Of a stretch of 64,000 bases of DNA, positions 18,224 through 59,510 are shown piece by piece (within the stretch, counting starts at the first letter, position 1; the number at the start of each line of letters is the position of its first letter). The DNA is from Lampris incognitus (taxonomy: Eukaryota > Chordata > Actinopteri > Lampriformes > Lampridae), in assembly GCF_029633865.1 (NCBI RefSeq), contig NC_079223.1, positions 8,751,736 through 8,815,735 on the forward strand. Reading direction: 5' to 3'. The notes under the pieces were generated by a model. It saw only the letters and a program-made list of their open reading frames with translations. It was not told where the DNA came from and searched no databases. The position numbers and the translations under genes are program-made.

Positions 18224-19074
18224 CTGAGGAGAAGACCAAAACAAGTGTCGATTACACTAGCTCAGCAACTGTTGCAGGCCCTCCGTGCTTCCCGTCCAAG
18301 TTAAAGGACACGTAGTCAAACGTCCTCCGGGCTGGAGTCCTGGTCAGGGACCAGGCTGACGAACCAACATCTTTTGAGGAGGCGATTTGTCTCCAAGGCA
18401 CAAACATACAGTATCCCTACTTAAGGGTATTGACTGGGCAGAGGAGGCAAATCTGTTTATTCCCTGAAAAGCATCGGACCCCCTGGTGCCTGAAATGTGT
18501 TTCCAGACGGAACAGTCTGTCCTCCATCTACACACAGCCCCCCCCCCCACACACACACACAAAATCTCAAAAATATCAAAACGTTATGTATTACTGCAAC
18601 ATCTAAATATTCATTCTGTTCATCTATCTACCTATACATATGTGTAAAATTTATTTCAATACATATTTTAATATAATAGTCCATATTTAATAATATAAAA
18701 TAATAATATAAAATATATAAATAATTGTGAAACATAATATTCAATATTTAATAACATTTTCATAATTTAATTTATAATGTATTTTATTATTTTTTTTTCT
18801 TATACTGTGAAGCGCTTCGAGATCTGTCTGCAGATGAGAAGCGCTATACAAACTCTATTATTGCTATTATTGTTATTATTACAATATGGACTGGGATGCA
18901 AAAGTGTGGGTAAACTCATCCAAAAGAGGCGACTACACTGGCTGTTTGGGGACTCACTGTCATGGCCCAACACCACAGCGCAGGCGTCAGAGTAGCTGGG
19001 GCAGATCTTGGAGCCTTGTCGGTTGCAGTCGTCGTTATTGGAGCCCATACAGGTGTAGCACTGCAGGGCCTCAC
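18027..19074 (-). CDS. Ly6/uPAR-family GPI-anchored protein (two exons, 5' incomplete)
   Basis: Two exons, 19074-18958 and 18223-18027, join in phase. They encode a single three-finger (LU) domain: EALQCYTCMG...DDC, then ICPSYSDAC, then CSYRSFC and VRVHCCYTDDCN. A short hydrophobic tail, LPGLGCLSLLLLLLIQLLVLN, then runs to the stop. Cys-x-x-Cys near the start and CC...D-x-CN at the end are the hallmarks of the family. The asparagine after the last cysteine plus the hydrophobic end predict a GPI-anchored cell-surface protein. The signal-peptide exon, which must end in 1 nt to complete GGT or similar, was not found upstream. It could be diverged or separated by the repeat-rich stretch. Function within the family (receptor modulation, complement control or other) cannot be assigned. 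Confidence 0.85.
18655..18870. repeat. AT-rich tract and LINE/SINE tail in Ly6-like intron
   Basis: About 18655-18790 is nearly pure A/T. It is followed by 'tgaagcgcttcgagatctg', 'agaagcgctatacaaac' and (ATT)n. This is the widespread fish retroelement tail with paired AAGCGCT motifs. Confidence 0.6.
18958..19074 (-). CDS. Ly6-like protein, internal coding exon
   Basis: The acceptor CTTTTCTTTCCTCAG and the donor ACA|GTGAGT bound 38 codons, EALQCYTCMGSNNDDC through AVVLGHD. These contain the first six cysteine-type positions of the three-finger fold. The upstream phase requires one nucleotide from a preceding signal-peptide exon. Confidence 0.88.
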
Positions 19075-19264
19075 CTGAGGAAAGAAAAGGTAAAGGAACT
19101 GTGATGGAGCACACACTAATGCACCCAGTTAACGTGGCACAGCATGGGCCGATGAGGAAACCCTGCTTAATATGACACAAGGGTGAAGGGTAATTATGGC
19201 AGGATAGCACCCTTCCGGTTTCACATCGCTATGTTAGAGAATAAAGACCTCCTCCCGTATTGAC

Positions 19265-21989: not shown

Positions 21990-22895
21990 TCCCTCTGTAG
22001 GCCTTACCATGACTCTAGAGGCAGAACACCCACAATACTAATGTCCCTCTGTAGGCCTTACCATGACTCTAGAGGCAGAACACGCACCATAATAATACCC
22101 CCCTGTAGGCCTTACCATGACTCTAGAGGCAGAACACCCACAATAATAACACCCCCCTGTAGGCCTTACCATGACTCTAGAGGCAGAACACTCACAATAA
22201 TAATGCCCCCCTGTAGGCCTTACCATGACTCTAGAGGCAGAACACTCACAATAATAATGCCCCCCTGTAGGCCTTACCATGACTCTAGAGGCAGAACACA
22301 CAATAATAATACCCCCCTGTAGGCCTTACCATGACTCTAGAGGCAGAACACTCACAATAATAATACCCCCCTGTAGGCCTTACCATGACTCTAGAGGCAG
22401 AACACCCACAAAAATAATGTCCCTCTGTAGGCCTTACCATGACTCTAGAGGTGGAACACACACAATAATACCCCCCTGTAGGCCTTATCATGACTCTAGA
22501 GGCAAAACACGCACAATAATAATGTCCCTCTGTAGGCCTTACCATGACTCTAGAGGCAGAACACACACAATAATAATGTCCCTCTGTAGGCCTTACCATG
22601 AATCTAGAATCAGAACACGCACAATAATAATGCCCCCATGTAGGCCTTACCATGACTCTAGAATCAGAACACGCACAATAATGATGTCCCTCTGTAGACC
22701 TTACCATGACTCTAGAGGCAGAACACACACAATAATAATGTCCCTCTGTAGGCCTTACCATGACTCTAGAATCAGAACACGCCCAATAATAATGCCCCCA
22801 TGTAGGCCTTACCATGACTCTAGAATCAGAACACGCACAATAATAATGCCCCAATGTAGGCCTTACCATGACTCTAGAGGCAAAACAAGAACGAT
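21990..22895. repeat. Minisatellite, 54-bp unit, about 17 copies
   Basis: The unit contains CTGTAGGCCTTACCATGACT, CTAGAGGCAGAACAC and a CACAATAATAAT spacer, repeated every 54 bp with minor shortening. Variants (CCCCCCTG versus TCCCTCTG; GAGGCAG versus GAATCAG) alternate in blocks. The unit is a multiple of three and lacks stops in some frames on both strands, so the 215- and 194-codon frames here are artefacts. Confidence 0.95.
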
Positions 22896-22899
22896 AATA

Positions 22900-24360
22900 A
22901 AGGAATACAGGCTGGTTTTTTTGTGATTATGAAATATTGATCTGTTTTACGTCATCCTGACGCTGCTCTCTTTGTTGACATGACATGTAAATACCCCCCC
23001 CCCCCGCTGTCTCCATCTGACCCCAATCCATCCCAGCAGCGTGGCCGCACCCCTGGCACATGCTGCAAGAATTAGCTTCCAGGCCTATTAGGAGATTAGC
23101 TGCTGGGATTGCTTACCAGTTACAGAAGAGGATTGAAGGCAAGACTGAAGAGACAAAACAGGAATGACCGTAATAACAGAATCACAGTGTGGATCGATCA
23201 GCAAATTAAATATTATATATCATTACCAAAGGTCAGGTCTTACAACCCCAGCACCTGACCACAGTGATGAAAAGAGGGTGCGAAACTGAAGGCAACAGCT
23301 GTTTTTTTGACTGGTGGAGGTTTTCAGTACTATTAAATAGTGACAGGACCAGGTTCTATCTGTCAAAATCAACAGATCACTCGCTTTTCCAAATCAAATG
23401 CAGAGGAGCAAAACGAAGAGACACCGCGAGACAGTTTTAGTACGAGCAAACAAGAGGAGATGAAACAGGGATGCAAAATTCCTCATCAAACTATCCAGAG
23501 AAAAACAGTATTAAAGGGTAAAAAATGTGACCAGCACGGGTAAGGAGCTGAAATTGGGTGGTTTGGAAGAGTCAGAGGGAAGGGTGGATGAGGTAAAAAT
23601 GGGAGGAGGGAACAATTTAAGTAAACGGAGGAAAAGAAAGAAGTCCTTACTGTGTGAAGCTAAGAGGAAGAGGGAACAAAGAAGCAGCGGGCAGCACTGG
23701 ACAGCTCTCATGATGCTGGTGGTCCCTGGTTGTCCTGATGGCACAATGAAAAGCAAGTTGTTTGCTGCTGGCGACCCCCCCCTGATCTTAATCTGAGCAA
23801 CGAGATGAGTCAACTTCCCCGCCTGCACGGACAAGGAGATTACCAACTCATCCACGGGCCCCGCGGCTCCGTTTCCGAGATCCGATCAGCGTTTCCCCGG
23901 CCAGGCTCAGCAGGGACAATGGGAGGTAAAGTAACGGGACTCTTCCTTTCTGAGGTCTTCGCAGACTTAAGTGCTCCCTTGGCCACGCCTGTCCATCACC
24001 GGCGCCTCCCTACTTTGCCCAAATCCTGACCCGGTTCGGCCTGGTCTCTTATGTCACCAGGACCCTCCTCGTCCCTTTTGCACCGTGACTGCTCAGTAAT
24101 CCCAGTGTTGAAACGGAGCTCCGGCATTGCAGCCCTTCAGTTTTCTGTTCGTTCTGATGGTTAAGAGCACGTAAGAGAAATAAGAAATATGGGCCAACAT
24201 GTTCTCAACATTTAGCTCTCCATCATGAGACCTCACTGTCTGGTGGGCGTCGACTTATGGATGCTTTCGTTTATGTCACTTCATACACGTTGTAGTTTAT
24301 GTCTATTTGGACCGGGTATTAATGCGGAACAAATCTGCATCAGCATTACTAATCTTTTTT
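22900..24360. other. No gene recognised
   Basis: Overlapping short frames on both strands at 23510-23860 have low-complexity, Lys/Glu- or Ser-rich translations and no recognised domain. No splice-site pair supports an exon, although the missing first exon of the Ly6-like gene might lie here. Confidence 0.35.
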
Positions 24361-25254: not shown

Positions 25255-26022
25255 ATCGCGTGGTACCGAGAGGTCGTGACGGGCCGGTACCGAGAGGTCA
25301 TGACGGGCCGGTACCAAGAGGTCATGACAGGCTGGTACCGAGAGGTCATGACGGGCCGGTACCGAGAGGTCGTGACAGGCTGGTACCAAGAGGTCATGAC
25401 GGGCCGGTACCAAGAGGTCGTGACAGGCTGGTACCGAGAGGTCATGACGGGCCGGTACCGAGAGGTCAAGACGGGCCAGTACCAAGAGGTCGTGACAGGC
25501 TGGTACCGAGAGGTCGTGACGGGCCGGTACCGAGAGGTCGTGACAGGCCGGTACCAAGAGGTCGTGACAGGCCGGTACTGGTACCGAGAGGTCACGACGG
25601 GCCGGTACCGAGAGGTCATGACGGGCCGGTACCAAGAGGTCGTGACAGGCCGGTACCGAGAAGTCGTGACAGGCTGGTACCGAGAGGTCATGACGGGCCG
25701 ATACCGAGAGGTCACGACAGGCTGGTACCGAGAGGTCATGTCGGGCTGGTACAGAGAGGTCATGACGGGCCGGTACCGAGAGGTCGTGACAGGCCGGTAC
25801 CGAGAGGTCGTGACGGGCTGGTACCGAGAGGTCATGACGGGCCGGTACCGAGAGGTCATGACGGGCTGGTACCAAGAGGTCGTGACAGGCCGGTACCGAG
25901 AGGTCACGACAGGCCGGTACCGAGAGGTCGTGACGGGCTGGTACCAAGAGGTCGTGACAGGCTGGTACCGAGAGGTCATGACGGGCCGGTACCGAGAGGT
26001 CGTGACGGGCGGGCAACGTGCC
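25255..26022. repeat. Minisatellite, 24-bp unit, about 32 copies
   Basis: Each unit reads close to CGGTACCGAGAGGTCATGAC GGGC and carries a KpnI-type GGTACC. Copies differ mainly at a few sites: CCGAGAG/CCAAGAG, CATGACG/CGTGACA, CCGG/CTGG. Because 24 is divisible by three and the unit lacks stops, all the long frames on both strands (up to 338 codons) are repeat translations. One unit near 25578 has a partial extra GGTACTGGTACC. The array lies about 0.5-1.2 kb beyond the tacc2 stop-proximal 3' UTR. Confidence 0.97.
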
Positions 26023-27163: not shown

Positions 27164-30100
27164 CTGTTGGGAACAAACAGAAGAAGAGTTTGGCGGTCAC
27201 ACGGTGATGTGTACTCGCTACATGAGTGCGACCATGACCTGTGAACGGTATCACAGCGCACGGCCTCGACTTCCTGGTTATTTGGACAGAACGCGTCCCT
27301 CTTCTCTCGTGTGCAGACGTGGCCTAAAGAGGATTTATGTTCCATATTGTTCCACCAGGTCTGTGCTGGATGAGGAACAACACCGCGGGCAGCAGGAAAC
27401 ACAGTTCTGGCTCGCATGCTTGAGCACAGGTTTGGTTACCCCATGGCTGCAATTGATTTGAATGGAGGAACGTGTGCACTACTAATTTAACCTTACACAG
27501 CCAACCGCAAGCAGCGGCAGATGAAGACAGATGGGTACAGATGAGTACAGCTGTGGTAAACGTAGATATTTACATACGTGTGCGTGTGCAGGCACGCATG
27601 ATAGAGCGCCACATGTCTACGATGACATTTAGAGGGTAACCTCACATCGCACCGTGATGTATTTCAGAGTTGGAGTAAGGATACATCAGTCACTGTCGAC
27701 TATTAAACCTCTCTCTCCGTCATGTCTCACACACACACACACACACTCACTGCATAGCTGTAGACTCATCGGTCATCTGTGGTTTGAGCACTGTGCAGTA
27801 ATAAAGCTCGTCCTGGGTACGACATTAAACTGCAACTGCCAGGTCGTCGGCGACTAAACCGGCACCCCCACTTCAACCCTTGGGTTGTTGTAAGGAGGGT
27901 GTGTGGACACCCAGCAGGACTAAGAACAACACCTGTCAAAGGGCGGACGAGTTCCTCTGTGAACCGACGGCCATCCATACCTGGAGAGGAGATAGGGACC
28001 GCCAGGTACTCCCCCTACTGAAACACAATGATGACTCAACCCTGTTGAGGCATCAGCTGTGCTCCTACGACCTTCATAGCTTATGGAACTGATGAGGATG
28101 ATGAGGATGATGAGTGATAAAGCAGCAGCAATGCATCTACAGCAGATATGCAGCTGGGGACGCTGTGGTTCAATCATTTTCCTTTTTGGATTTTTTCCCC
28201 CCCTTTTTCTCCCTAATTGTACTTGGCCAACTACCCTATTTACCCCCTCTGCCAATCCGGGGAGGGTTGTAGACTACCACTAGAGTCGCCAGCCGCTTCT
28301 TTTCACCTGACAGTGAGGAGTTTAACCAGGGGGACATAGTGCGTGTGGGAGGATCACACTATTCCCCCCAGTCTCCCCCACCCCGAACAGGTGCCCTGAA
28401 CGACCAGAGGAGGTGCTAGTGCAGTGACCAGGACTCATACCCACATCCAGCTTCCCACCCACGGCTAATTGTGTCTGTAGGGAAACCCAAACAAGTCGGA
28501 CGTAACGCGGGGATTCGAACAGGCGACCCCTGTGTTGGTAGGGAACGGAATAGACCGCCACACCACCCGGACGCCCCGGAACAATCATTTTCTACGTTGT
28601 GTCGTGTAAATAAAACAGAGTTTAAGGTATTTAGAGAAGGAAAGAGTCCCGCTATCCCCATGTTTCCCGTGACTTTACCGACGGCAGCTGTTGAAAACAG
28701 GAACACAGTGTCCTGTTAAAAGCCTGTAATTTTAATCAGTTTTAAATGCACACCCGTCTGTATTTAATATCTATGCTAACCATTTACGTAAGGTGAACTG
28801 TGCTCCGCAAGACTCGTTCACCTCTCGTAACGTCTCATAATGTGGGAAACAAACCACAGCTGGCAGTGCAGCTGTATTTCATACCATTATCCTCAATAGT
28901 AAAATGACCCATATTCAGGCATTTAACCTGCAACGTTATAACGTCAAATCCCTCATTGCACGCTAGCTGCTCTGCTGCCGTATCTTTCCCCCCCATTACA
29001 GAGGTACTAAACACTCAGATGTGTTTTCTGAGCTGCAGACTGAATGATACGACTACGCTGATGACACACATCACTGCTGGTGTTAATATTGACATTTCTT
29101 ACCAAATTTATAAAACTGGCTTTTCACGAGCTGAAAATGGCTCAACACACCATCTACTGTTTTACATTGGCCCTGAACCTTGCAAGGTCAATACTGATGT
29201 AGAGTCGACCGGTTGGGACTTATCTATGTAATGAAATAAAAAAGAAAGAATGTTAACACCCTGTAATGGGTGACCCACCTCCCCCAGCCCCCACCCTTGA
29301 GTGTGTCTGTGAAATCCCGCTCATTTTCAAATACACCAATCAGCCAAAACACAGGTAAGTGAATAACGCTGATTATGTCGTTACCATGGCACCTGTCAAG
29401 GGGTGGGATATGTTAGCTAGCAAGTGAACAGTCAGTTTTTGAAGTTGACGTGTTGGAAGCAGGACAAATGGGCAAGCGTAAGGATCTGAGCAACTCTGAC
29501 AAGGGCCAAATTGTGACGGTTACACAACTGGGTCAGAACATTTCCAAAACGACGGGTCTTGCGGGGTGTTTCTGGTATGCAGTGGTGGGCATGTGAGCGT
29601 CAGAATTGGATCATGGAGCAGTAGAAGACGGTGGCTTGGTCTGATAAATCATGTTTTCTTTTAGATCACGTGGACGGCCAGGGGTACGTGCGTATTGTTT
29701 ACCTGGGGAAGTGATGGCACCAGGGTGCACTGTGGGAAGAAGGTAAGCCGGAACAGGCAGTGTGATGCGCTGGGAAATGTTCTGCTGGGAAACCTTGGGT
29801 CCTGGCATTCATGTGGATGTTACTTTGTTTAGGTACCACCTACCTAAACATCGTTGCAGATCAAGTACACCCCTTCATGGCAATGGTTTCCCTGATGGCA
29901 GTGGCCTCTTTCAGCAGCATAATGTGTCCTGCCACACTGCAAAAACTGTTCAGGAATGGTTTGAGGAACATGACAAAGAGTTCAAGGTGTTGCCTTGGCC
30001 TCCACATTCCCCAGATCTCAATTCAATTGGGCATCTGTGGGATGTGCTGGAAAAACAAGTCCGGTCCATGGAGGCCCCACCTCATAACTTACAGAACTTA

Positions 30101-33100
30101 AAGGATCTGCCTCTAACGTATTGGTGCCAGATACCAGAGGACACCTTCAGAGGTCTTGTGGAGCCCATGCCTCGCCGGGTCAGAATTGTTTTGGCAGCAC
30201 GAGATGGACCTACACAGTATTGGGCAGGTGATTTTAATGTTTTGGCTGATCGGGACTCATCATTCAGAGGCGTCTACTCGCAAACCTTGCACCTTTATGA
30301 CATTTTCTACCGACCTTTTGAATTTCTCTCAATTTACAGTTATAGTTATTTTGTCATTTTCAATTTTGCCAAAATGGTCGGACTTGTACTTTGGATGGCT
30401 GTAGAAGCACTGCGGCTGGGGGAGCAGTCGTGCAGTTGCCTACCACCGGAAAGCTGCAGACCATTACGGCGGTCGGGGCATCTTCACGGGGTAGTGTTTG
30501 ATGCTGTGCCAGAAGGCGAGCCGGTGGAGGGGACTGGGTATGGCAGTGTAAAGCGATGAGCCGGCAACTCGCGCTGGGCCCTTCTTGTGGATCTCCCCAG
30601 CTACTCCTGCCCATGCTCCTTACCCACACATCCACGCCCTGACCCCCCTCTCAGTCCCTTGCCCACTTTTTAGCATTTTTTCAAATTATGCAGTGGGTGG
30701 AGTTAGGCTCAGACCCGGGCAAGAAAGTAACTTAAAAAAATGTGAACGCTTCTTGTTGGTGACACTGTTTAAGTTACATAATGTAGGACAAAAAGCATCA
30801 GACACATATCTGTATTGGAACATTCAAATTAAGACTTTTAGGATTTTCAACAGCTGCTGTTTCCACAACAACCAGGGACGCACTCGGCTGAAAGTCACTA
30901 GAACACGGTTACTAGTTGAACTGAAACACCTGCAAGAAAGCAGTGGCACTGCTACTGAAGTCAAACGCTCCAGCTCAGACAAGCTTGCTGGGGGTTTAGT
31001 CCAATCAGATTGCAGCTCATTTCTAAACAGTCTCTCAGAGCCAATTGAGGACTGTGCTATTTCATCTACCCCCAGGGTGGTCCTGCCTACATTAGTTAAC
31101 CCTTTACTGGTTGTATTTGTGACCTTTTTGACGAGAATTGATTGTTGCTATTGGGTGAAAAACATATGATATATCTCCTGTGATTAATCGACTACTTTTT
31201 GGGGGTGGTTGACGACTACTACCATGCAGCAGTCTTGAATGGCTCGTTTGAGGAATGAGGAATAAAAGAAAAAAAGCTAACTGACCTTCTGCTCCAAAGT
31301 GCGCTCCAGAGAGTCCACCTTCATCTGCTCCTTCCTCAAACTGGCCTGATAAGCCGCCTGCTCCTGCTTGGCCTTGACCCGCACCTGAGCTATGTCCATA
31401 TTGGCCCTGGAAATACACATTGTAATGTAGTGTCAATAGTCAGACTCAGCCTGATAGCCAACTCCAAGTCCTTCAGGACACACTTCAGAATTTAGCGCCG
31501 ATGTAGAGTTATGGAAATTGTTCTGAATTATCGTCTGTCAATTATCTGACTGTTAACCACACACTCACTAGGAACAACGTCTATTTCACCTAAACAGGAT
31601 GACCTGTGTCCACGCACATTTGAGATGGACCTAGCAGTTATTGCCATGGGGAGGGGGGGGGACAAACAAAACAGCATAATCACAGTTGAATGAATGTGAA
31701 ATAAACAAAGCTTGTGGACTCACTTGTCTAGCTTCTCCTCTGCGTGAATCTTCAGGGCCTGATAACGCTGCTCCTCCTTGCGTACCCTGGAGAGATATTC
31801 CTGAGCACACTTCTTCAGAACCTCTTCATTCTGCACAGTGAGACACATTTTCATTATCGGCTGAGGGGTGATTGGTGAACATTTTGAATGTTTCTACATC
31901 TTGCCACGAGCACCCACACGTGCGATGTGACAGGTTCTTTGTGTGTTTGTTTGCTGGTACGTGTGTGATTCACCTTACGAAAGCCCTCCAGCACGTCTTT
32001 CATTTTCTCATAGCGCCGGAAGAGATCAGCCAGAGACTTCTCTACTGAATTGAGGTCTGCCAGAGCCTGGTCCTTCTCTATTATTAGCTGCTGGATGGTG
32101 TGGTGGGAGAGAGACTTCTCCTTCTGCTCATCCTCTGATGGACACACACAACATATGATATAGATCAGACCTTGGCAAGCACAGACAGACACACACATTT
32201 GGCAACTCACACACAGAGCCACACTCTTGACAATGTACAGGAATTATTAGTCGGTTAGTATTGTTTCATAGTACTACTGAACGACATTTTAAACCACATA
32301 CATTTCAAGGGCGTTGCTGAAAAGAGCTAGTGAAAGAGCATGCAGACAAAACAAAAATCAAATGATGGGAAGAATCAAAGAGACCTTTAAATAGTAAAGG
32401 GAGAACCGGCTGTTGGTGGGTTGCCTCCAAGAACCCTGGGAATTAAAACGGCAAAGCTTCCTATGGCAAACCCTTCCCAGGTTTCCCTTTCAGCACCTTT
32501 CCTTTCCTGTCCGAGGCTTAGACGAGAAACCTGCTTATCTTACTCATTCTGCCTGAATGACTTAGGACAAAGTGGTTCTGAATCCCGGTCCTCGGGTACC
32601 ACCAGTACTGCTGGTTTCCCATTCCGCCAGATAAACAATTACATTCACCTGCTGTTCAGGTCTAAAAACTCCCTGATGAGCTGGTTGGGATGGATGCCTA
32701 ACACAACAGGATTGAGAACTAGACTGAGAACCACTGATTTAGAATACTGGGAGCCTGCCAAAATACAGAAAGGACAAATGTGTAAGTGTGGATGTGGGTC
32801 AAAGCCTCTTAACATAATTAAATTGATTCAAATACCCAATTAAATTGATTCAAATACCCAATTAATTGCGCAATTGTAGAAGTCTGGCTGTACTTTTGTG
32901 TCAGGAACTGAACAAGAAAATAGGTGGCAACCACTTAAATAGGTGGTAATTCCCCTCTCTAAGTAAAAGTACATCAAAAACGCATCGATATATGAAAAAC
33001 GAAAACAAAAATGGAAAGACAAATGTCACAAGACAAGTTCAAGATGGCGAGCAGATCCGCTTCCTTTTCTGTGATGAATGGATGTGAACTAACACAAACA

Positions 33101-49100: not shown

Positions 49101-49505
49101 AAAAAGAAATTGCATCGGTATGCTACGATCCCACATGAAGAGTACCGACAGATTATTTTTGGCAGCAGCAAGGACACACGTACCTACACACATACATGCA
49201 TGATAAAGCTCACCACACACTACCGACCATAGACTGCCAAACATCGACGAGATGAAGATGATCAATGGGCTAACCGCCAGGTTGTGGCGGCAACCTCCCG
49301 CTTTGTCTCACCTCTGCCTGACTGGCTCCCCGGCAACTGTGATCATGGCGGCATGGCGTGAGCCCCAGGAGAGACGGTGAAGGAGCCCGAGAGGGGGACC
49401 TGAGTCTGGGCTGTCCCCATCCCCTGCCCCTCCCAGCAATGAGTCCCAGCCCCAGCGAGCCCACTGCAGAGGAGACAGAGCCTGCCATGCGGCGCTCACT
49501 GCCAT
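27098..49505 (-). CDS. tacc2: TACC2, centrosome/spindle coiled-coil protein (17 exons, short isoform)
   Basis: Seventeen exons join in one frame, 3216 nt or 1071 aa. Minus-strand coordinates: 49505-49312, 48587-48481, 47957-46523, 44011-43954, 42964-42757, 42339-42296, 42150-42041, 40322-40169, 39650-39504, 39107-39066, 36141-36001, 35905-35829, 33840-33797, 32134-31974, 31830-31724, 31406-31286, 27163-27098. Every junction is GT/AG and phase-compatible. Residues ~1-64 are a TACC1-like start, 101-578 the large SPAZ exon, 599-667 contain [10 protein letters not shown], and ~870-1071 are the TACC coiled coil ([52 protein letters not shown]). The MGKS end, [20 protein letters not shown] and [13 protein letters not shown] favour TACC2 over TACC1/TACC3. 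TACC proteins bind chTOG-type partners and act at centrosomes and microtubule plus ends. Whether undetected exons occur between the first exons is unknown. Confidence 0.96.
28186..28577 (-). mobile_element. tRNA-derived SINE (family A) in tacc2 intron 16
   Basis: Minus-strand copy with the tRNA-like head at the right (reverse of 'gggattcgaacaggcg') and internal deletions in the body ('taccactagagtcgccag'). Confidence 0.82.
29333..30253 (+). mobile_element. Tc1-like transposon relic in tacc2 intron 16
   Basis: Terminal inverted repeats CCAATCAGCCAAAACA and TGTTTTGGCTGATCGG mark the ends. The transposase is the fish Tc1-like type: [16 protein letters not shown] at the amino end, then a large internal deletion near 29580, and later [20 protein letters not shown] and [16 protein letters not shown]. 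The acidic catalytic positions are altered: the second DDE block reads QQHN, and the third reads NSIGHLWD where the family has Glu. Several frameshifts are present. The element cannot be autonomous. Confidence 0.85.
31286..31406 (-). CDS. tacc2: tacc2 exon 16
   Basis: Between TTTCCAG and GTCAGT. It encodes [20 protein letters not shown] and then [20 protein letters not shown], heptad-patterned coiled coil of the TACC domain. The first nucleotide completes a split lysine codon. Confidence 0.97.
31724..31830 (-). CDS. tacc2: tacc2 exon 15
   Basis: Acceptor CACTGTGCAG, donor AA|GTGAGT. It encodes [20 protein letters not shown] and [15 protein letters not shown], among the most conserved TACC-domain stretches. 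Confidence 0.97.
31974..32134 (-). CDS. tacc2: tacc2 exon 14
   Basis: Acceptor GTGTCCATCAG, donor AAG|GTGAAT. It encodes [20 protein letters not shown] then [19 protein letters not shown] and [28 protein letters not shown] separates TACC2 from TACC1, which has SLSDLFRRYENLK. Confidence 0.97.
32565..32745 (+). repeat. Interspersed repeat fragment in tacc2 intron 13
   Basis: Contains 'tcctcgggtaccaccag', 'ctgctggtttcccattcc' and 'gctggttgggatgg', and is similar to 17045-17160. The family is unnamed. Confidence 0.5.
33797..33840 (-). CDS. tacc2: tacc2 exon 13
   Basis: A 44-nt exon between TTATCCACAG and GTGAGT, encoding [14 protein letters not shown]. The motif is near-invariant in TACC proteins. 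Confidence 0.96.
34060..34556 (+). mobile_element. tRNA-derived SINE (family A), complete with TSD, in tacc2 intron 12
   Basis: A clear head GCGTCCGGATAGCGTAGCGG with box B GGTTCGAATCC is followed by the full body and an (AAATAAAC)n-type tail at about 34480-34553. The 11-bp duplication TCTCATATTCT flanks it at 34048-34058 and 34557-34567. It is the best-preserved copy for defining the family, about 430 bp plus tail. Confidence 0.9.
35530..35574. repeat. Short fish retroelement fragment
   Basis: 'catttagcagacgattttat' and 'ccaaagcgacgtaca' are the widespread fish motif for a SINE/LINE tail. It lies directly beside the perfect hairpin at 35575-35615. Confidence 0.55.
35575..35615. repeat. Perfect 19-bp inverted repeat, 3-nt loop
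   Basis: GTTACTACAACACAAGCAA, then GTG, then its exact complement TTGCTTGTGTTGTAGTAAC. It lies in tacc2 intron 11-12. Confidence 0.95.
35829..35905 (-). CDS. tacc2: tacc2 exon 12
   Basis: Acceptor CCTTTTTTCAG, donor AG|GTAAGA. It encodes [20 protein letters not shown] then EVVEM, the start of the continuous TACC coiled coil. Confidence 0.96.
36001..36141 (-). CDS. tacc2: tacc2 exon 11
   Basis: 47 codons with [20 protein letters not shown] and [13 protein letters not shown], matching the segment just before the TACC domain. The acceptor is either AAGCAG| (36141, chosen) or three bases earlier (36144). This NAGNAG choice would add or drop one glutamine. The donor is GAG|GTGCCC, a weaker site. 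Confidence 0.88.
36319..36342. repeat. Poly(A) tract in tacc2 intron 10
   Basis: An uninterrupted run of A in the 39.1-36.1 kb intron, possibly the tail of an unrecognised retroelement. Confidence 0.8.
39066..39107 (-). CDS. tacc2: tacc2 exon 10
   Basis: A 42-nt micro-exon, [14 protein letters not shown], between CGGCCCAG and GTAGCC. It is homologous to the family's EELEFA-MRIEAL segment. Being a multiple of three, it could be skipped without frameshift. Confidence 0.93.
39504..39650 (-). CDS. tacc2: tacc2 exon 9
   Basis: 49 codons between CCCCTGTAG and GTGTGT. They include [20 protein letters not shown] and AQKLQ, which corresponds to the YLEPDLAE...FAQKLQ motif of TACC2/TACC1. Phase 0 at both ends. 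Confidence 0.95.
40077..40154. repeat. (GA)n microsatellite next to tacc2 exon 8 donor
   Basis: About 38 GA repeats with two GC interruptions. On the transcribed sense it is (TC)n, beginning 14-15 bases after the exon 8/intron boundary. Confidence 0.95.
40169..40322 (-). CDS. tacc2: tacc2 exon 8
   Basis: Begins (G)[19 protein letters not shown] and ends [10 protein letters not shown] before GTGAGT. SFEE matches the SSFEETEA of mammalian TACC2; the rest is fast-evolving. A long (TC)n on the sense strand begins eight bases into the intron. Confidence 0.92.
40928..41366 (+). mobile_element. tRNA-derived SINE (family A) in tacc2 intron 7
   Basis: Head GGGCATCCGGGTAGCATGGCGG; the box B is mutated ('ccagatcaaatccccg'). 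Complete body and short A-rich tail. CACCTAT-like sequence on both sides may be the target duplication. Confidence 0.85.
42041..42150 (-). CDS. tacc2: tacc2 exon 7
   Basis: Acceptor GCCTTGTAG, donor GG|GTATGT. It encodes [20 protein letters not shown] and [17 protein letters not shown], corresponding to the KKQALYLMFD...PTPCSG region. Confidence 0.93.
42296..42339 (-). CDS. tacc2: tacc2 exon 6
   Basis: A 44-nt exon encoding (D)[14 protein letters not shown], a hallmark TACC2 string. Acceptor TCCTGCCAG, donor CCA|GTAAGT. Confidence 0.96.
42757..42964 (-). CDS. tacc2: tacc2 exon 5
   Basis: 69 codons plus 1 nt. It contains [20 protein letters not shown] and [10 protein letters not shown], both conserved in TACC2. 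Acceptor CCACGGCGCAG, donor AAG|GTGAGG. Confidence 0.96.
43256..43680 (+). mobile_element. tRNA-derived SINE (family A) in tacc2 intron 4
   Basis: Head AGTCCGGGTGGCGTGGCGG preceded by a poly(G) run, box B AGTTCGAATCC, full body, and a tail of A-rich 'gagagaaaaaaagaaa'. Confidence 0.87.
43954..44011 (-). CDS. tacc2: tacc2 exon 4
   Basis: Encodes (S)[19 protein letters not shown], the basic segment after the KKKK motif. Acceptor TGCTCTTACAG, donor CAG|GTGACT. Likely part of a nuclear-localisation-type basic cluster. Confidence 0.95.
44780..45975. mobile_element. Fold-back Tc1-derived element (~535-bp inverted arms) in tacc2 intron 3
   Basis: The ends are CACTACCGTTCAAAAGTTTG and its complement, flanked by TA dinucleotides. 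Left arm 44780-45315 and right arm 45442-45975 are nearly identical inverted copies around a ~126-bp loop. The plus strand of the right arm (45654-45812) encodes the carboxy end of a Tc1 transposase ([20 protein letters not shown]). The facing strand of each arm encodes the amino-terminal helix-turn-helix ([40 protein letters not shown]). The catalytic core is missing. The left HTH copy has a TGA within it; the right one is intact. Confidence 0.9.
46067..46142. repeat. 24-bp tandem repeat, 3 copies
   Basis: TTTGATCAGGATTTGTTGATACAG is repeated three times, with a partial first copy. It lies in tacc2 intron 3, immediately beside the fold-back element. Confidence 0.92.
46523..47957 (-). CDS. 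tacc2: tacc2 exon 3, large SPAZ-containing exon
   Basis: The 1435-nt exon (477 codons plus split ends) lies between TTATCTGTAG and TC|GTAAGT. It begins with a D/S-rich stretch and [20 protein letters not shown], the family's [17 protein letters not shown] motif. [20 protein letters not shown] and [13 protein letters not shown] follow. Three related modules come next: [39 protein letters not shown] and [32 protein letters not shown] closes the exon. It is Ser/Pro/Lys rich and probably disordered. Confidence 0.97.
48481..48587 (-). CDS. tacc2: tacc2 exon 2
   Basis: 107 nt between TTGTACTGTAG and AAAG|GTAAGG. It encodes (R)[19 protein letters not shown] and [34 protein letters not shown] is shared with mammalian TACC2. 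It needs two nucleotides from the preceding exon, which both candidate first exons supply. Confidence 0.96.
49312..49505 (-). CDS. tacc2: tacc2 alternative first coding exon (TACC1-like start)
   Basis: An ATG in an excellent context (GCAGCCATGG) starts [20 protein letters not shown], which matches the TACC1 amino terminus MAFSPWQILSPVQWAKWTW. An in-frame TGA lies 30-40 bases upstream. The frame runs 64 codons plus AG to AG|GTGAGA. No good acceptor was seen just upstream, so this appears to be a true first exon with its own promoter. A TATA-like TTAAAAG lies near 49720 on the minus strand. Confidence 0.9.
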
Positions 49506-49999
49506 GGCTGCTGGCTGGCCAGACGTCTCCACACCACGCTGCTTACTGCCCCGTCACACGGGTAGAAGCCCCAGTATCGCTCCAACAGTCGCCCGCCACC
49601 TCCAGGAACGCGTCTCTCTCACCTGCCCTGTCTTCCTTTCTCTGTTTCTCTTGACTGGTTATTGTGAATTGTCTTTGTTCCCCTCCATGGTGTGAAATCC
49701 CTTCACACAGCTCATCTTTTAATCCAGAGTCATGTGAATTTCTCCTATATAGAGTCGAAACTCCACCCCAGTGGGAAATGATGCCTCCCAACTCAAAGCA
49801 GACTGGCTGCTGAAGCCCACCACCACTTGCACACATTCTGGCACTCTCGCTTACATTTATACTCTCTCTCTCTCCCCCCCTCCCTCTCTCTCTCTCTCTC
49901 ATGCACGCACACAAGCTATACTTCATATGGTAATCGAGAAAAAAAAACTCCTATGTCCGACTGCCCAGGCAGCGCTGATAAAACTCGCTTGTTCCATCA

Positions 50000-52900
50000 G
50001 CCTCTGATGCCTCTCTTACACATTTTCTGTCCCTTTAACCCTTATTTTCTCGCTTTACACCAAAATCCAATGAGAAAATCAACCAAAACCGACTTGGTCC
50101 CTGTGCACAGAACACACCGAGACTCTGCTTGGCAAAAAACGTTTCCTCTTCATTGGCAAACTGAGGCAGTGTCACTATGCCGAATTCGAGCAAAACCGTA
50201 CATTTATGGCCATTAACTGAGCGTATTCTAGTTGGCCACACAATTGTACTTGTGTATTTTGTCTGCTGTCAGACTGTTTGCTGTAAGCTGTAAGCTGCAC
50301 ATACTGTAGAGTCCAAGGCAGAGTAACTGTTCCTTCAACACATCCATGGGCAGTATCATGAAATTGAGTCAATACAATGAGCAATAAAAGGTGTTGAAAA
50401 TAGAAATGCCTGAGGCAGCTTTTAGTGCTAATCTCTTTGTAGCTACTTGGCTATTGGTGGACCTCAACCCATTTCAAACACACACACACACACACACATG
50501 CAGGAGAAGAGAAAAGGACCCCCACTGAGAAGACCGCTCCATGTCTATTGATTTATCTTTGTCATTGTGTTTTTATTCGGGCCATAGTGGGGCTATCCAT
50601 CCTCCTGTGGGGGGGGGGGTTCTTTGTCACAGGCACACGCAAACATGGCCCAAATAACAGCTGTTACTGTTGAAGGATGTCAGGGGTATTGGCTACAAAA
50701 TCAGCTCGGTATTTGCTATTAATTGATGACAAAAGACTCGCTGCCTGACTGAGACAAGAGTGCTCATCAAAGGGGTGGGGGTTGGGGGGGGCTGGAATGA
50801 GAAAGGGGTCCTGGGAAGGTGGGTGAATCTCTTAATAAAACATTTTGATTGTTACGGTCAATATGTCCACGAACCCTGGGGGCAAACCAGTGCGGAGAAA
50901 GAGAGGCTCCTCAGCCGGCAGGAAGGCAGGCAGAAGTGAATTACACTTGCACTGCGTTAGCCGTCCTGTGAGCTTCTATCAGCATTTCCACCGTAAATCT
51001 CAAACTCTGTCAGGCGTTGCAGTTTCAACCGGGTACCTGGCAGCATTTGCACCAGGTCAAACAAGGATGTAGAAGTACCCGTTTCATAGGGTCCCTTTAC
51101 TGATTGCTACCAATCAAAACACAGAGAAACGTGGTGCTACGGCATAGGATGAAGGAGTGAACGGTTCAGAATGAGACTGGACATGAGATGCCTATATGAG
51201 CGCCGTGTCCGATCGGGATCAGACTTTGCCGTCTGCAGATCCATCTGCATCAATCTCCGGGAGCCAGGATCATGGTGTCAGATGGTCAGGCAGGCAGTGA
51301 CAGAGACAGCTCCAAAGGCAGGAGCAAGGAGCAGTTTATAAGAACAGCTTTGGTGTCCTGCAGTTACGCTGATCACTTCTGAAAAGGCACGATGAAGACG
51401 ACCATTCCCAAGCTGCTGCTATAAAATGGCTGGATACACTACAAATGCCGTCTCTAAACGGCGAGCGAGGACGCCTAATTAGTGTTCATTTTGATTCTCA
51501 GTTTATCTCCTTGCAGAGGAGAATTTTCACATGGCTGCAAACACAGGGTTGCCATGGTGACTGTAGACTGACTGCCTGCGCCATATGTTCCACCGTGGCC
51601 GGATGTTCACAGTCCCGGCCGACACACAGGAGCATGCGCACAAGAGCACACACACACACACACGTGAAAACACACACATGCGCGCAACTGCGGACCGCTG
51701 AACACATGAGCCTCGAATGAAGCCTCAGTCTGGCTGATGAAACGGGAGACAAATACAGGTGCATCACAAGTTTGATTTCTCCAATAGCTGCAGCAGCATG
51801 CTGTGCAGAACGCCTCGACTGCTTTAAAGAGACAGGAAACGTCTCATTGTTCACACTGCTTTACTCACACACCTCTTCCCGTGTCGCCATGTCTAGAAGT
51901 CTCGAAACGGTGCCGCGTGTCAGTGCTTCGGCTGACCGTAGTCAAACGTGGATGTGAAAAATAACGAATTAGGTGAATAAACATATTAGACCTCTGAACA
52001 TTTTTTGTGGCATTAATCCTATTTTCTAATGCTTACTGAACCTCGTATCAGAGAAAGGCAGAAATGGGAACTCGTATCGTGGGTGAGCAATCAAGAGCGA
52101 GGGGGTGGACTATAACAAAGGGGGCAGTTAGTTAACGGCTGCCCGACACATGATCGCCCGGAGTCAGAGGCTGCGCAGCGGGAGGCGGAGAGACGCCGCG
52201 TCCCAGGCAGCCAAACACATTTCTGCCCTCAGCCGAGTCGATCGCCTCCTCTCTAAACGCTGGCCAGGGAGTCATCCTCAGGGGTGGGGGGGGGGGGGCT
52301 ACACCTTGCAGAGAGACCCCAACAAACACAACCTGCCTTTCTGTAAAATACATCGTTTGCAACTACCAAATAGAAAAACAGGAATCGACAGCAAGAAGGA
52401 TGTACTGTGCTGCAGCCCTTGTTGCTGCCCGGGCGTTTTCAAGATCACGGCACGGCACACAGACCGGGTGGGCATTTTTGAGTCAGTTTTCAGGAGAAAA
52501 CACCAAACTGATAAGCAGGACTCGATGTTACCTGTGAAGGATGGATGAAGAGGGGCAGACTGACGAAGGCTGATAGGAGAGGTGCAGGATAAGAGAAGGG
52601 GGGGAAGGGGGGAGAGGGAGGGTGAAGGCTGCAGATCTGCCAGCAGCTGTGTGAGCAGCGTGTCATGGGATTAGCTGTGGCGATGCCGCTACAGACACCC
52701 ACTGTTATTTCTCATCCGTCAACCACAACTAAAAAGCCGCCCGTCTGGACACCGACCGTCTCGTTGCATCCCTTCCAAGTTTCCTTCCTCCTCTCTAAAA
52801 TTAAAATGTTAATCTTGGTGTCGGTCGTTTCCTAACAGACACACTAACACATGCAGTGCATTAATATCTCAATTGGGTATTTACCTTGACAGAATAGAGT
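50000..52900. other. tacc2 long intron 1; no exon recognised
   Basis: This lies between the two alternative first exons. Simple-sequence patches occur: (CA) at 50480-50500 and 51640-51663, and G runs. A pyrimidine tract ending TTCACAG at about 52530 (minus) could be an acceptor, but the sequence after it stops soon in all useful frames. No homology to the long N-terminal region of mammalian TACC2 was found. Confidence 0.4.
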
Positions 52901-52920
52901 TTAAAAACCGGCCATCATTT

Positions 52921-53294
52921 TTTTTCCCCCCTTTGGATTTCCCTCCCCCCTTTTTTTCTCCCTAATTGTATCCGGTCAATTTCCCCACTCTTCCGAGCCG
53001 CCCCGGTCGCTGCTCCACCCCCTCTGCTGATCCGGGGGGGGCTGCAGACTACCACATGCCTCCTCCCATACATGTGGAGTCACCAGCCGCTTCTTCTCAC
53101 CTGACAGTGAGGAGTTTCACCAGGGGGGCGTAGCAGGTAGGAGGATCACGCTATCCCCCCCCCCCCCCGAACAGGCGCCCCAACCGACCAGAGGAGGCGC
53201 TAGTGCAGCGACCAGGACACATACCCACATCCGGCTTCCCCCCCGCAGACGCGGCCAATTGTGTCTGTAGGGATGCCCGACCAAGCCGGAGGTA
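52921..53294 (-). mobile_element. SINE family A, lacking tRNA head
   Basis: Minus-strand copy whose homology stops at 'gaccaagccggaggtaa', just before the tRNA-like head. It is therefore 5'-truncated, as expected from incomplete reverse transcription. Confidence 0.85.
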
Positions 53295-53615
53295 ATTTTG
53301 ACCGCCCATGGTTGTTTAAGGTAGATCTTATCATAACGTTTTTATTTTTGTGCACAATGGAATGATCTAAAACTGACTTTAATGCAAACATATGCAATTT
53401 TAGGAGCATCCAGGGGGCAGCAGGTCTGTATCTTTCTTTTTTTTTTCCCCCCACAAAGTTGTTAAACTTTGAAAATCCAAAACTGTCAAAATGACGGCCT
53501 TGGCCGTTCTAGCGTTCAACGCAACTGAACGAGGAATATCTGTGTCATGAGAAGGTAAGGTGGAGCTGGTTGAAATTACGTAATACTAAAGGCTATGTAG
53601 AAAGAGAGATGCGAG

Positions 53616-54115
53616 ATGCAAGGGATGGGCACTGAGACGACAACAGAGGGCGCTCTCACCCCTTCAATGTTATTAACCAAGAAGCTGGACAACAAGATAA
53701 AAGCAGTGCAGCGCATGAAACCACAACTTAGGAAGGTTTTACAAGACATCAAACTTGAAAGAAAGAGAAAGAAAGAGGGGAACCCCAAACGGGTCTTTGA
53801 TCCGTCTCTTTAGTTCTAGTCAGCAGCAGTTGAGCGGGCCAAGAACAACTGCTGTCTGAATGAGATTTTTATGATAATCCACCAACATAAAGCATTTCTC
53901 TTTTCTGCACCTGACTCATCCGCCTCAGGAAACGAGCCCTTGTGGAGCCTTCTCAAAGGCCCCAGACACCCCAGCTACGGCCCATTCCAGCTGCTACCGC
54001 CAGGCAAGCGGCACCGCGGCCTCAAAGCCCGGACCAGCAGGCTCCAGAACAGCTTTTTCCCCACCGGGCAACCGGGCTTCTGAACAAAGAACATTAAAAG
54101 ACACTAAGCCTGGTG
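53616..54115 (+). mobile_element. Retroelement (LINE-type) 3' coding relic
   Basis: Translation shows KRHRGLKARTSRLQNSFFPTG then QPGF and a stop. This RTSRL-NSFFP string is typical of the end of LINE-associated frames in fish. The preceding Lys-rich frame (QRMKPQLRKVLQDIKLERKR) may belong to it. Identification is by motif only. Confidence 0.45.
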
Positions 54116-54371
54116 CCGGACTGATGGTACTGACCCATGGTCTTCAGAGGAAACACACACAAATATGCAAACAGCTACACACGCATATGCACATTTATTA
54201 AGGCAGAGCCCGCCCACACACACACACACACACAGCATCTTACATCACACACTATTTATTATTATTGCTGCTTTTTTGTTCTGTTTTGTTGTTATTTAAT
54301 ACTGCTGTTGCTGCAGTGTTGAGTGGCTGAAACCCGAGAATTTTACCCTTGTACTTTTATTCTATTTTATT

Positions 54372-54803
54372 TTTCCCCCTTTTCTCCCCAATTGTATCCG
54401 GCCAATTACCCCACTCTTCCGAGCCGTCCCGGTTGCTGCTCCACCCCCCTCTGCCGATCCGGGGAGGGCTTCAGACTACCACATGCCTCCTCCCATACAT
54501 GTGGAGTCGCCAGCTACTTTTTTTCACCTGACAGTGAGGAGTTTCACCAGGGGGACGTAGCGCGTGGGAGGATCACGCTATTCCCCCCAGTCCCCCCCCC
54601 CCCCGAACAGGCACCCTGACCGACCAGAGGAGGCGCTAGTGCAGCGACCTGGACACACACCCACATCCGGCTTCCCTTCCCGCAGACACGGCCAGCTGTG
54701 TCTGTAGGGACGCCCGACTAAGCCGGAGGTAACACGGGGATTCGAACCGGCGACCCCCGTGTTGGTAGGCAACGGAATAGACCGCTACGCTACCCGGACG
54801 CCC
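54372..54803 (-). mobile_element. tRNA-derived SINE (family A)
   Basis: Full-length minus copy with an intact box B (reverse of 'gggattcgaaccggcgac') and head 'ccgctacgctacccggacgcc'. It lies in the long tacc2 intron. Confidence 0.88.
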
Positions 54804-55503
54804 CTCTCTTGTACTTTCATAATGAGACGTAACAAATAAAGAATCTTGAATCTTCTATAACCGTTAAAGGACAAATTAATAGGGACACTAAAAATGGGTC
54901 TCTCTCAAAGAGCAGCAGTCTCGGAGTTTCCGTCGTCCCTGTCCAGCCTGACTGAGGAAGTCCAGTGTTCCTGTGTGTGTCTCTGCGGTGTGTGCCGGGT
55001 GTCCCTCCCTCGACGAAAAGCACCGATTCCTCAATGTCCAAAAACAAAGGAGCCACTGAGACAAGAGTGTCAGCCCAGATAATCTCCCCTCACAGTAATG
55101 CCACATGCAGCCTAATCTGAGACCTTTGCTTCAAGCAGATGGTCCCAACGCCACAACAACACACTCAGCTCAGGCCTGGAAAGTAGAGCATCCACAAGAG
55201 AAGCTACACACCCTTTGAATTCATGCTAACAAAACAACCCAACTGGCCTCGTGTCGTGGATGATGTCACACTCTTCCACTGTACAAGACTGACTCACACA
55301 GGATAATGATGTCCCTTTATATAGTAGCCCAGGCACTGGTCTAAGTCTAGGACTTAATGCTCTTGTCTAAGATGTTAAGCTTGATCTTTGTGTTCATGAA
55401 TGAGACGAAATGGTTAAATCTTATCCAGTTTTTTTTACACTTAAAAACTTCCTGATCAGTGACCACCAGTAGGCTCTCACGGCTCCGTTTATTTATTTAT
55501 TTA

Positions 55504-55935
55504 CCGCCCCCCCTTCTCCCCAATTGTATATCGCCAATCCCCCTGCTCTCCCAGCTGTGCCGGTCGCTGCTCCACCTCCTCTGCCGACCCGGGGAGGGCT
55601 GCAGACTATCCCCATGCCTCCTCCCGTACATCTGGAGTCGCCAGCCGCTTCTTTTCACCTGACAGTGAGGAGTTTCGCCAGGGGGACGTAGCGCGTGGGA
55701 GGGTCACGCTATTCCCCACAGTTCCCCCTCCCCCCCGAACAGGCACCCCGACCGACCAGAGGAGGCGCTAGTGCAGCGACCAGGACACACACCCACATCC
55801 GGCTTCCCACCCACAGACACGGCCAATTGTGTCTGTAGGGACGCCCGACCAAGCCGGAGGTAACAAGAGGATTTGAACCGGAGATCCCCGCGTTGGTAGG
55901 CAACGGAACAGACCGCCACGCTACCGGGACGCCCC
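55504..55935 (-). mobile_element. tRNA-derived SINE (family A)
   Basis: Full-length minus copy. The box B is slightly mutated ('ggatttgaaccgg'); head 'gccacgctaccgggacgcc'. It lies 0.7 kb from the previous copy in the same orientation. Confidence 0.88.
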
Positions 55936-57438
55936 TCGGGGCTCCATTTATAACACAACTAAAGGACGGAGCACCCAAGAAGCTGCACACAAACAGTCTG
56001 TCAAGTCAAGTCAAGTTGCCTTTTACATAGCACTTTTCTCGCTGCAACAGCCACTTTAAAAGAGCTAGAATATTCCATATATATAAACCTACAATGAGAA
56101 TGAACTTAATGTGCATTTCTAGTATCCCCTACATTTTGTCAACTCTAAATTTCGTCCAATTTCATTGTGTGTGTGTGTCATTGCTGTCAATGTTTTCGTC
56201 TGATTATTTCAGCTATCTAAGGCCTTAACTACTGACAGGGGAAAGCATGATATTACCCAGGCGGAACAATACATCGTCTCATATGCAACAATACCACTGC
56301 AAATGATGCAACGTAAGGTAAATTGGGCCTATCGGTCATGTTGGGGTAAAACGCTTACTGCTTGATAGAGAACGAAATCTGGCAGAACTCCACAATTTAA
56401 TGGCTTCTTGGGACAACTGCCTTATTTCCCCCTCTCAAATCATCCTGCCTAATTTCCCTCTCTAAAATCACCCTTATCATTGCACGAGTGATGAATTCTT
56501 CGCAAATGGAACTTTTGAAAGAGAGAATCTATTTATATCTGCTGAAGTTTCGTACCTCGTTTTCATTCTACACACGCCGCAAAAACACACAAAAAAATAA
56601 TAATATGAAAGTTGATTTTTCTCAGTATTGTTCATTAAGCGGTCCCTGAATACGTACACATACGGATCAAATGCTCCCTCCAACCCCCTCCTCTGTGACT
56701 CCCCTTAGTCCTTGTTCCCCCGTGTGCCCGCGTGTCTGGGAGATATAAATAAAAGTAGAGCACCCCCCCTCCCCCCTCCTCTCTCCGCCTCCAACGTCCT
56801 CTCATCCACTGTTGTTCTCTCACTTAGCTTCCACATCCCCCGCACTGTGATTTCTATTTCGGCACAGTCTCCAGCACTTGCTTCCACCGCGACGGTTGTG
56901 TCCCCCTTCCCACAGCAAAACATCACCCAACCAGACACCCCCCCCCCCCCACCCCCAGCATCTGCCTACCACCTAACTCTGTTTCCATCAGCCCGCCTCT
57001 GTGGTCCGTCCACACCGGGTCCTACACTCACTGACACACCGATGCGCCCTTTGCATGTGTCCCGACACGTGCTGCGACCCATTTTCCATCACAAAAGAAA
57101 CGAATAAAAACAGTGATGCAAGTCACAGTCAGTGAGTCTCAGCATTACAAAGTTTAGAAAGCTTTTCAATACCCCCCCGCCCCCCCCGCCCCGATACGCA
57201 TTATCACTGTGGAACTAGTGTGCGTTCAGAAAGAACACAGAACCCACATGTGTAAAAATAACCAAATTTGACAACAACAGCAGAAAGAGGAGGAGCTATT
57301 CGCAAGTCTTCTGGCTTTCCCAGTCATCTTCAACCACTGGCCTGTGCCTTCTGCAGAACAGATCCCCCATTCATGTTTTGTCCTCCGCCCTCCAACCCCA
57401 CCACAGGTCAGCAGACAGGCAGGTAAAGTGTGACTTAC

Positions 57439-57497
57439 ATGTGCTCCTGGGAGAGACAGGGGGCCTGTCCTTGCTCCAATGACTCGTTGGCTCCCAT
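57439..57497 (-). CDS. tacc2: tacc2 upstream first coding exon (long-promoter start)
   Basis: ATG in strong context (A at -3, G at +4) encodes MGANESLEQGQAPCLSQEH plus AT before a consensus donor AT|GTAAGT. Mammalian TACC2 long isoforms begin MGNENSTS, so the MGxNES-like start fits. Gly2 would allow N-myristoylation, as inference only. The two leftover bases match the phase needed by exon 2 at 48587. Exons between the two could exist but were not recognised. Confidence 0.72.
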
Positions 57498-58139: not shown

Positions 58140-59510
58140 GCAGCCTTCTCCTCCTCCCCCTCATTCCGCTACCGCGACTAAGAAGGGGAGCCAAACAATA
58201 GCACACCCCAGACAGCACTGGTTATCGGGCCATTTTTCAACCCGCTTGTCATTCTCACAGTGAGCGTACCTTTCTCCGGTCTCTTTCTCCTGCCGGGATC
58301 CCCCTCTCCCTGCACAACGGGTCGCATAGCGAACGTGTCAGCTTGTGCCTCCTCTTCACACAATGGAAGCTTCCAGCGGGGGAGCGTGGCCAACCAGGGC
58401 GATGCGTGATGTAAACAATAGACCCTGAGAAAGTATGTGTGTGCATGTGTATTATTTAACTCCTGACCCATTATGTGCTCCCTGACTCAAGCCCCACCAG
58501 CGGCTCTGCGCCACGACAAACGAACCGGAACAGATTCGACTCCCTTTTGGTATGTTCATTAACACTACGAGACCAAATCAAACACAGCTTTCAGGTTGAA
58601 AAAGACCCCCCATCGTTGCCGTAAAGGGTAAACAGATCGACTTTATTGTCGGCGTTGGGTTTATTTTGATTCAAAGCAGCTTGGGAGTCACGCTTTCCCC
58701 GAACGGAGAGCCAAGACACTGAACCAAACACGGCGCCTCTCTCCGGGTCACTTTCAAAATGAATTCTGCCCTCCCCGGTGACTCCCCGGGGAACGGGCCG
58801 CACTCATGATCTAATTTCCCTGCACTCCCATCAAACCTTAATACATCAACGACAGCAGGGGCAGTAATCATCGTCCATGTGCCCGTGACCATATTTCAGA
58901 ACTGTGCCGAGCCGTGTTGGGAAGGAAGAGAGTGAATCTCGCAGGGCTGCTCAGGTGGAAACCATCGCTGCAGGAGGGTCTGCCAATTCCCACTGACGGC
59001 GCAGCAGCAACGGGAGACTCGTCTGAATAGGGGGCACCTGTAATATGAGTAACATACATCCATTGTGGCGCTCATGGGAAAGCGAAGTAACGGGGTTCCT
59101 CACAATAGCTACTTTGGCCTGCAGCCCTTCACTCCCACACACAAGAAACCGTTCTGAGCAGGTCCTGGGTGACGTACCTGCGCCTTTGTTGACTAAAGGG
59201 AAAAATGGAGTGAGTCATATTCACTTCCATCACATACAGTAACGCTGTGTGTGGAACACAAAGGCTGTTGTTAACATGTCCGATCAAATGTGCCTCGCTA
59301 ACATGTAAATGTAAACGCCCACAAACACGACTTCAGACCCTGTTGACACGACTCTGCTTTCGGACGAGCCTGAAAGTCAATGTTTTCAAGCCCTCGGGGA
59401 CTAGTGTATATGTTGCCTACACTACTACTCATGATCCGACAATCCCACTGGAGCAGAGATATTGATTGCTACTGCCAACAAGACCACCACAGTAGCTGGG
59501 TCAAAAATAC
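58140..59510. other. Upstream flank of tacc2; no gene recognised
   Basis: Short frames only. One minus-strand frame (58343-58268, starting MRPVVQGEGDPGRRKRPEK) ends at a donor-like AAAG|GTACGC. It could be a non-coding or alternative 5' exon, but nothing else supports it. Confidence 0.35.

Follow-up and report, generated by a model that had tools for sequence, protein, structure and literature searches.

How one gene may come to hold two protein starts, and whether one of them may be older than the split between that gene and its sister TACC1, are the questions raised by tacc2 of the fish Lampris incognitus, as found in a 64,000-nucleotide stretch of its genome (the window: RefSeq assembly GCF_029633865.1, contig NC_079223.1, positions 8,751,736 to 8,815,735 of the forward strand; positions below are those of the window). 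The gene lies on the minus strand. A sequence-only reading of this locus had proposed that tacc2 has two alternative first coding exons in the same splice phase, here called A and B, and that B, the one nearer to exon 2, resembles the start of the paralogue TACC1. We consider it probable that the two exons, which would have their own promoters, feed one exon 2, and that exon B and TACC1 exon 1 are homologues, the simplest explanation being that this start predates the duplication that separated TACC1 from TACC2. Alternative promoters as such are already well known in both genes: excerpts of the literature give alternative-promoter events at exons 1, 1a, X5 and 1b of TACC1 (PMC8665927) and internal promoters in human TACC2 (PMC3237596).

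Two candidate starts in front of one exon 2

Exon A (57497-57439) has 59 nt, that is 19 codons followed by AT, reads MGANESLEQGQAPCLSQEH with the start MGANES, and ends at the donor CAT/GTAAGT; exon B (49505-49312) has 194 nt, 64 codons followed by AG, and ends at GAG/GTGAGA. Exon 2 (48587-48481) is preceded by the acceptor CTGTAG and followed by the donor AAG/GTAAGG. Both first exons leave two bases, so that the A to 2 and B to 2 joins are both in frame, the G supplied by exon 2 completing a Met codon after A and an Arg codon after B. Thus, the positions, donors, equal phase and common junction at 48587 that the sequence-only reading had given were all confirmed in the sequence. Each ATG stands in a strong context (purine at −3, G at +4), and the nearest in-frame stop lies 3 codons 5′ of it for A and 17 codons for B, with no in-frame ATG between. 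Among 4147 minus-strand GT dinucleotides scored with a generic donor weight matrix, the donor of A falls within the top 0.82% and that of B within the top 0.31%. Translation from either start through exons 2-7 meets no stop and yields 673 residues from A and 718 from B. That exon B might instead be an internal exon, translated from a start further 5′, was rejected on account of the stop 17 codons 5′ of its ATG, a conclusion that holds unless an acceptor lies within those codons.

Equal splice phase alone is expected by chance one time in three. The rarity of such starts was gauged by a control that counted strong-context ATGs followed by 45-299 open nucleotides up to a donor whose score equals or exceeds that of exon A. 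Within the 10 kb that precede exon 2, A and B were the sole pairs to pass; in the whole window, on both strands, 42 pairs passed (1 plus, 41 minus), 38 of them inside a single 54-bp tandem array and the remaining four starting at 57497, 49505, 40309 (minus) and 29266 (plus). The cut-off was taken from exon A itself, so the control describes rarity and gives no unbiased p-value. The frame at 40309 is a candidate further internal exon of tacc2 and may match the human stretch SSFEETEALVNTAAKNQ.

The 500 bases upstream of exon A have a G+C content of 0.59 and a CpG observed/expected ratio of 0.82, but several other tabulated stretches reach similar values (0.82 at 51501-52000, 0.88 at 58501-59000), so no clear island stands upstream of exon A. 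Around exon B the G+C content is 0.52-0.54 and the CpG ratio 0.54-0.56. Two TATA-like hexamers on the minus strand upstream of exon B (49746-49861), TATAAA at 49861 and TATATA at 49751, are possible core promoters. Also 5′ of the exon B start are a strong-context ATG at 49688 (minus), which opens a frame of 9 codons, and a second strong donor, CAG/GTGAGA (49617-49625, minus; last exon base 49623). Together they may mark a noncoding first-exon variant or a means of translational control.

Likeness of the two starts to TACC1 and TACC2

The human TACC1 and TACC2 sequences used for comparison were provisional versions; one of five such TACC peptides was found in literature text, in one paper, where a human heart phosphopeptide with S1947 (PMC12518468, excerpt) agrees with one stretch of the human sequence used. 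When the TACC1 exon-1 peptide was searched against the window, its best match was at 49487-49386, within exon B, with 41.6 bits as compared with 21.9 bits for the next best, and 500 shuffled queries run at equal settings peaked at 26.9 bits with a word size of 3 and at 28.1 bits with a word size of 2. Exon B residues 1-26 align over 25 positions, with 15 identities that include four tryptophans. The common pattern, M-A-x-S...W-Q-x-L-S-P-x-Q-W-A-[KR]-W-x-W, is rich in tryptophan and is followed in both genes by the exon encoding SSDSxxxFETPE. That exon B is TACC1-like beyond chance is thus well supported by the alignment, and the likeness noticed in the sequence-only reading stands. Exon B differs from TACC1 exon 1 (the TACC1-A start) in that it belongs to tacc2 and in that its remainder has no counterpart of the acidic stretch of TACC1.

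The further claim, that this start is unlike the mammalian TACC2 long start, also held: exon B is absent from the five best window matches of the 50-residue human long start. The human TACC2 short isoform likewise shows no similarity to exon B (best match, 14.2 bits). The start of exon B matched no Pfam family at an E of 1 or below, and a Protein Data Bank search returned 4 matches, unrelated by name, the best at E 0.25. Relatives of exon B plus exon 2 sought in viral contigs, and relatives of the TACC-domain exon sought in viral and prokaryotic contigs, were none of them confirmed. A single-sequence AlphaFold2 model of exon B places helices at residues 5-8, 12-23 and 39-52, with the best block at residues 11-20 (predicted local distance difference test, pLDDT, 77), which is the conserved part; a hint, no more, that this part may form a short helix. 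The binding site for LSm7/SmG has been placed in TACC1 exon 1 (PMC8665927, excerpt), and by analogy exon B may share that region.

There is a weak resemblance between exon A and the start of the 1026-residue human TACC2 isoform (MGGSQSL...; MGGSQSLQPAPASDLNLEASEAM joined to SSDS), with an alignment score of 25 as compared with 6 for the long start, a comparison that somewhat favours the short start because that peptide and exon A end at the same join and the long start was cut at 23 residues. Exon A and the short isoform have in common MG, Ser 6, Leu 7 and the split Met codon before SSDS, with otherwise little identity; MG and Ser at position 6 are found in the human long start as well. Gly 2 together with Ser 6 is the pattern of N-myristoylated proteins, and with both residues present after Met 1 in MGANES exon A is predicted to encode a start of the N-myristoylation type. 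Among the matches listed for the TACC1/TACC2 literature, myristoylation was unmentioned.

The gene behind the two starts

The gene is of the TACC2 type, as had been read from the sequence, exon lengths modulo 3 and TACC-domain residues being in agreement. The exon at 32135-31974 matches Pfam TACC_C (PF05010) with E 2e-17 and 64 bits (cut-off, 29.9), and the six last coding exons, all on the minus strand, join in frame across the TACC domain to a stop: 35905-35829 (77 nt), 33840-33797 (44 nt), 32135-31974, 31830-31724, 31406-31286 and 27163-27098, the last ending in the stop codon. On the 5′ side, the common exon 2, of 107 nt, is the counterpart of human TACC2 exon 8 (137 nt), and the large exon 3 (47957-46523, 1435 nt) is that of human exon 9 (1312 nt), in both cases with equal length modulo 3; exon 4 (44011-43954), exon 5 (42964-42757), which carries the block beginning HATDEEKLA, exon 6 (42339-42296) and exon 7 (42150-42041) follow, all on the minus strand, and the exons between 42041 and 35905 were modelled in part. 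The exon 3 donor, ATC/GTAAGT, is non-consensus on its exon side and scores below 2.5. When compared with the human TACC2 exon-length table (PMC8087818, excerpt; human exons 14-17 and 20 onward fell outside the comparison), eight of eight lengths are equal modulo 3 and two are identical (77 and 44 nt, human exons 18 and 19), agreements that are not blind, since the homologous alignment was consulted when exon edges were chosen from the candidate sites.

When set against the provisional human sequences, the TACC domain is identical to that of human TACC2 at 161 of 191 positions, and to that of human TACC1 at 143 of 191. At the 47 positions at which the two human domains differ, the fish residue is that of TACC2 at 26, that of TACC1 at 8 and neither at 13. 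A tacc1 copy would make the TACC1-like start of exon B expected, but exon lengths, TACC-domain residues and the presence of TACC2-type exons all indicate TACC2, and a tacc1 identity was rejected as scarcely credible.

A remnant of a DDE_3 transposase (E 2.8e-11) lies at 29747-30556 (plus), within the last intron of tacc2. Elsewhere, the window holds the 54-bp tandem array at 21991-22900 (16.9 copies, open frames on both strands), a 24-bp tandem array at 25262-26010 (31 copies, long open frames on both strands) and, at 18803-19228 (minus), a cysteine-rich frame beginning LQCYTCMGSNNDDCNRQGSKICPS that looks by eye like an exon of the Ly6/uPAR type and has no Pfam match. A short interspersed element (SINE)-like repeat of about 425 bp, tRNA-derived in appearance by eye, lies at 54380-54805 and has 11 other matches in the window, 80-90% identical and some partial, with three copies in the A-B intron; a transfer RNA scan gave 0 genes and Rfam gave 0 hits at gathering score.

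Origin and meaning of the TACC1-like start

The exon common to TACC1 and TACC2 follows exon B directly, so that descent from the gene before their duplication is simpler than later copying. By taking into account this position and the alignment, the data suggest that the exon B start is older than the TACC1/TACC2 split, and its being ancestral and retained in fish, as the sequence-only reading presumed, is plausible. Several points weigh against the proposal of two promoters and an old exon B. Exons A and B are predictions from genomic sequence, the human comparison sequences are provisional, and the exon edges by which the gene was identified were selected while the homologous alignment was viewed. 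The TACC1 likeness extends over about the first 26-40 codons, the remainder of exon B not being TACC1-like, and the exon B model is weak overall (mean pLDDT 64.7; predicted template modelling score, pTM, 0.36). When the window is searched freely, the likeness of exon A to the human short start is at chance level (16.2 bits, joint fourth). Furthermore, the stretch from the TATA-like sites to the exon B ATG contains the ATG at 49688 and the donor at 49623, so that B could be bypassed or repressed if transcription started at approximately 49.75-49.86 kb.

The alternatives differ in how much of the proposal they would remove. Exon B may be general to vertebrate TACC2, mammals included, as an annotated internal first exon with nothing specially retained in fish, a reading to which we give a substantial chance, though somewhat short of even. 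It would take away only the retention in fish and is compatible with the rest. In its favour, a conserved splice variant of rat Tacc2 is reportedly in print from Padhi in 2014. A paper on the evolution of the TACC family is also said to exist, and one or the other may already describe these exons. Eight TACC2 isoforms had been reported by 2003 (PMC8087818, excerpt), which would also fit an exon general to vertebrates. The human TACC2 short isoform has no such peptide, but this is a single isoform, and the version used is incomplete, with 996 of an expected 1026 residues. As for published work on fish, first exons of tacc2 were untreated in titles and abstract openings among the matches listed on fish or TACC evolution, which is weak evidence of absence, and tacc2 was unmentioned among the matches listed for teleosts.

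The other two readings concern the state and the source of exon B itself. That it is a decayed or unused relic, the exon A promoter alone working, would be in keeping with a tail that is not TACC1-like and with the upstream ATG and competing donor, but 64 open codons, a strong start context and a strong donor are all intact, and we regard this as unlikely. Even less probable, in our estimation, is that gene conversion or the duplication of an exon brought B in from a tacc1 gene once the paralogues had separated. The end of the TACC1 likeness after about 40 codons and the repeat-rich setting, with a SINE that is matched at 11 further places in the window and has three copies (the reference one included) in the A-B intron, would suit such an event; the position of B next to the exon common to both genes is, however, what plain descent predicts, the divergence from human TACC1 (15 of 25 identical) looks old, and exon B overlaps no SINE match. 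The notion that exon B is itself part of the SINE was rejected, as 0 of 12 SINE matches overlap it.

With descent from the common precursor as the preferred reading, the gene before the duplication would already have had the tryptophan-rich start adjoining the SSDSxxxFETPE exon. In the present tacc2, each first exon would presumably be under its own promoter, both feeding the common exon 2. Transcripts from A would encode a protein beginning with MGANES and its N-myristoylation-type start, those from B a protein with a TACC1-like start, which is predicted to form a short helix over its conserved part and may hold the LSm7/SmG-binding region, while the remainder of the protein would be common to both. 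As the LSm7/SmG site has been reported in TACC1 exon 1, the fish isoforms may differ by RNA-processing contacts for B and membrane attachment for A. In human TACC2 several promoters, the intronic p10 among them, likewise lead to common 3′ exons (excerpts of PMC8087818, PMC5658375 and PMC3237596), with the difference that p10 transcripts enter the long-form exon 2, far upstream of the exon that matches fish exon 2. A bolder extension, which we hold to be doubtful, is that the gene before the duplication had two promoters, one for a myristoyl-type MG start and one for the tryptophan-rich LSm7/SmG-type start, that fish tacc2 keeps both, and that mammalian TACC2 lost the latter, so that in mammals the link to RNA processing would be confined to TACC1.

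Should both starts be in use, the LSm7/SmG-binding start that has been reported for TACC1 could be present in fish tacc2 too, and a knock-out of fish tacc2 placed in either first exon would spare the other isoform. Part of the separation between mammalian TACC1 and TACC2 might then reflect the loss of a promoter rather than the gain of a function.

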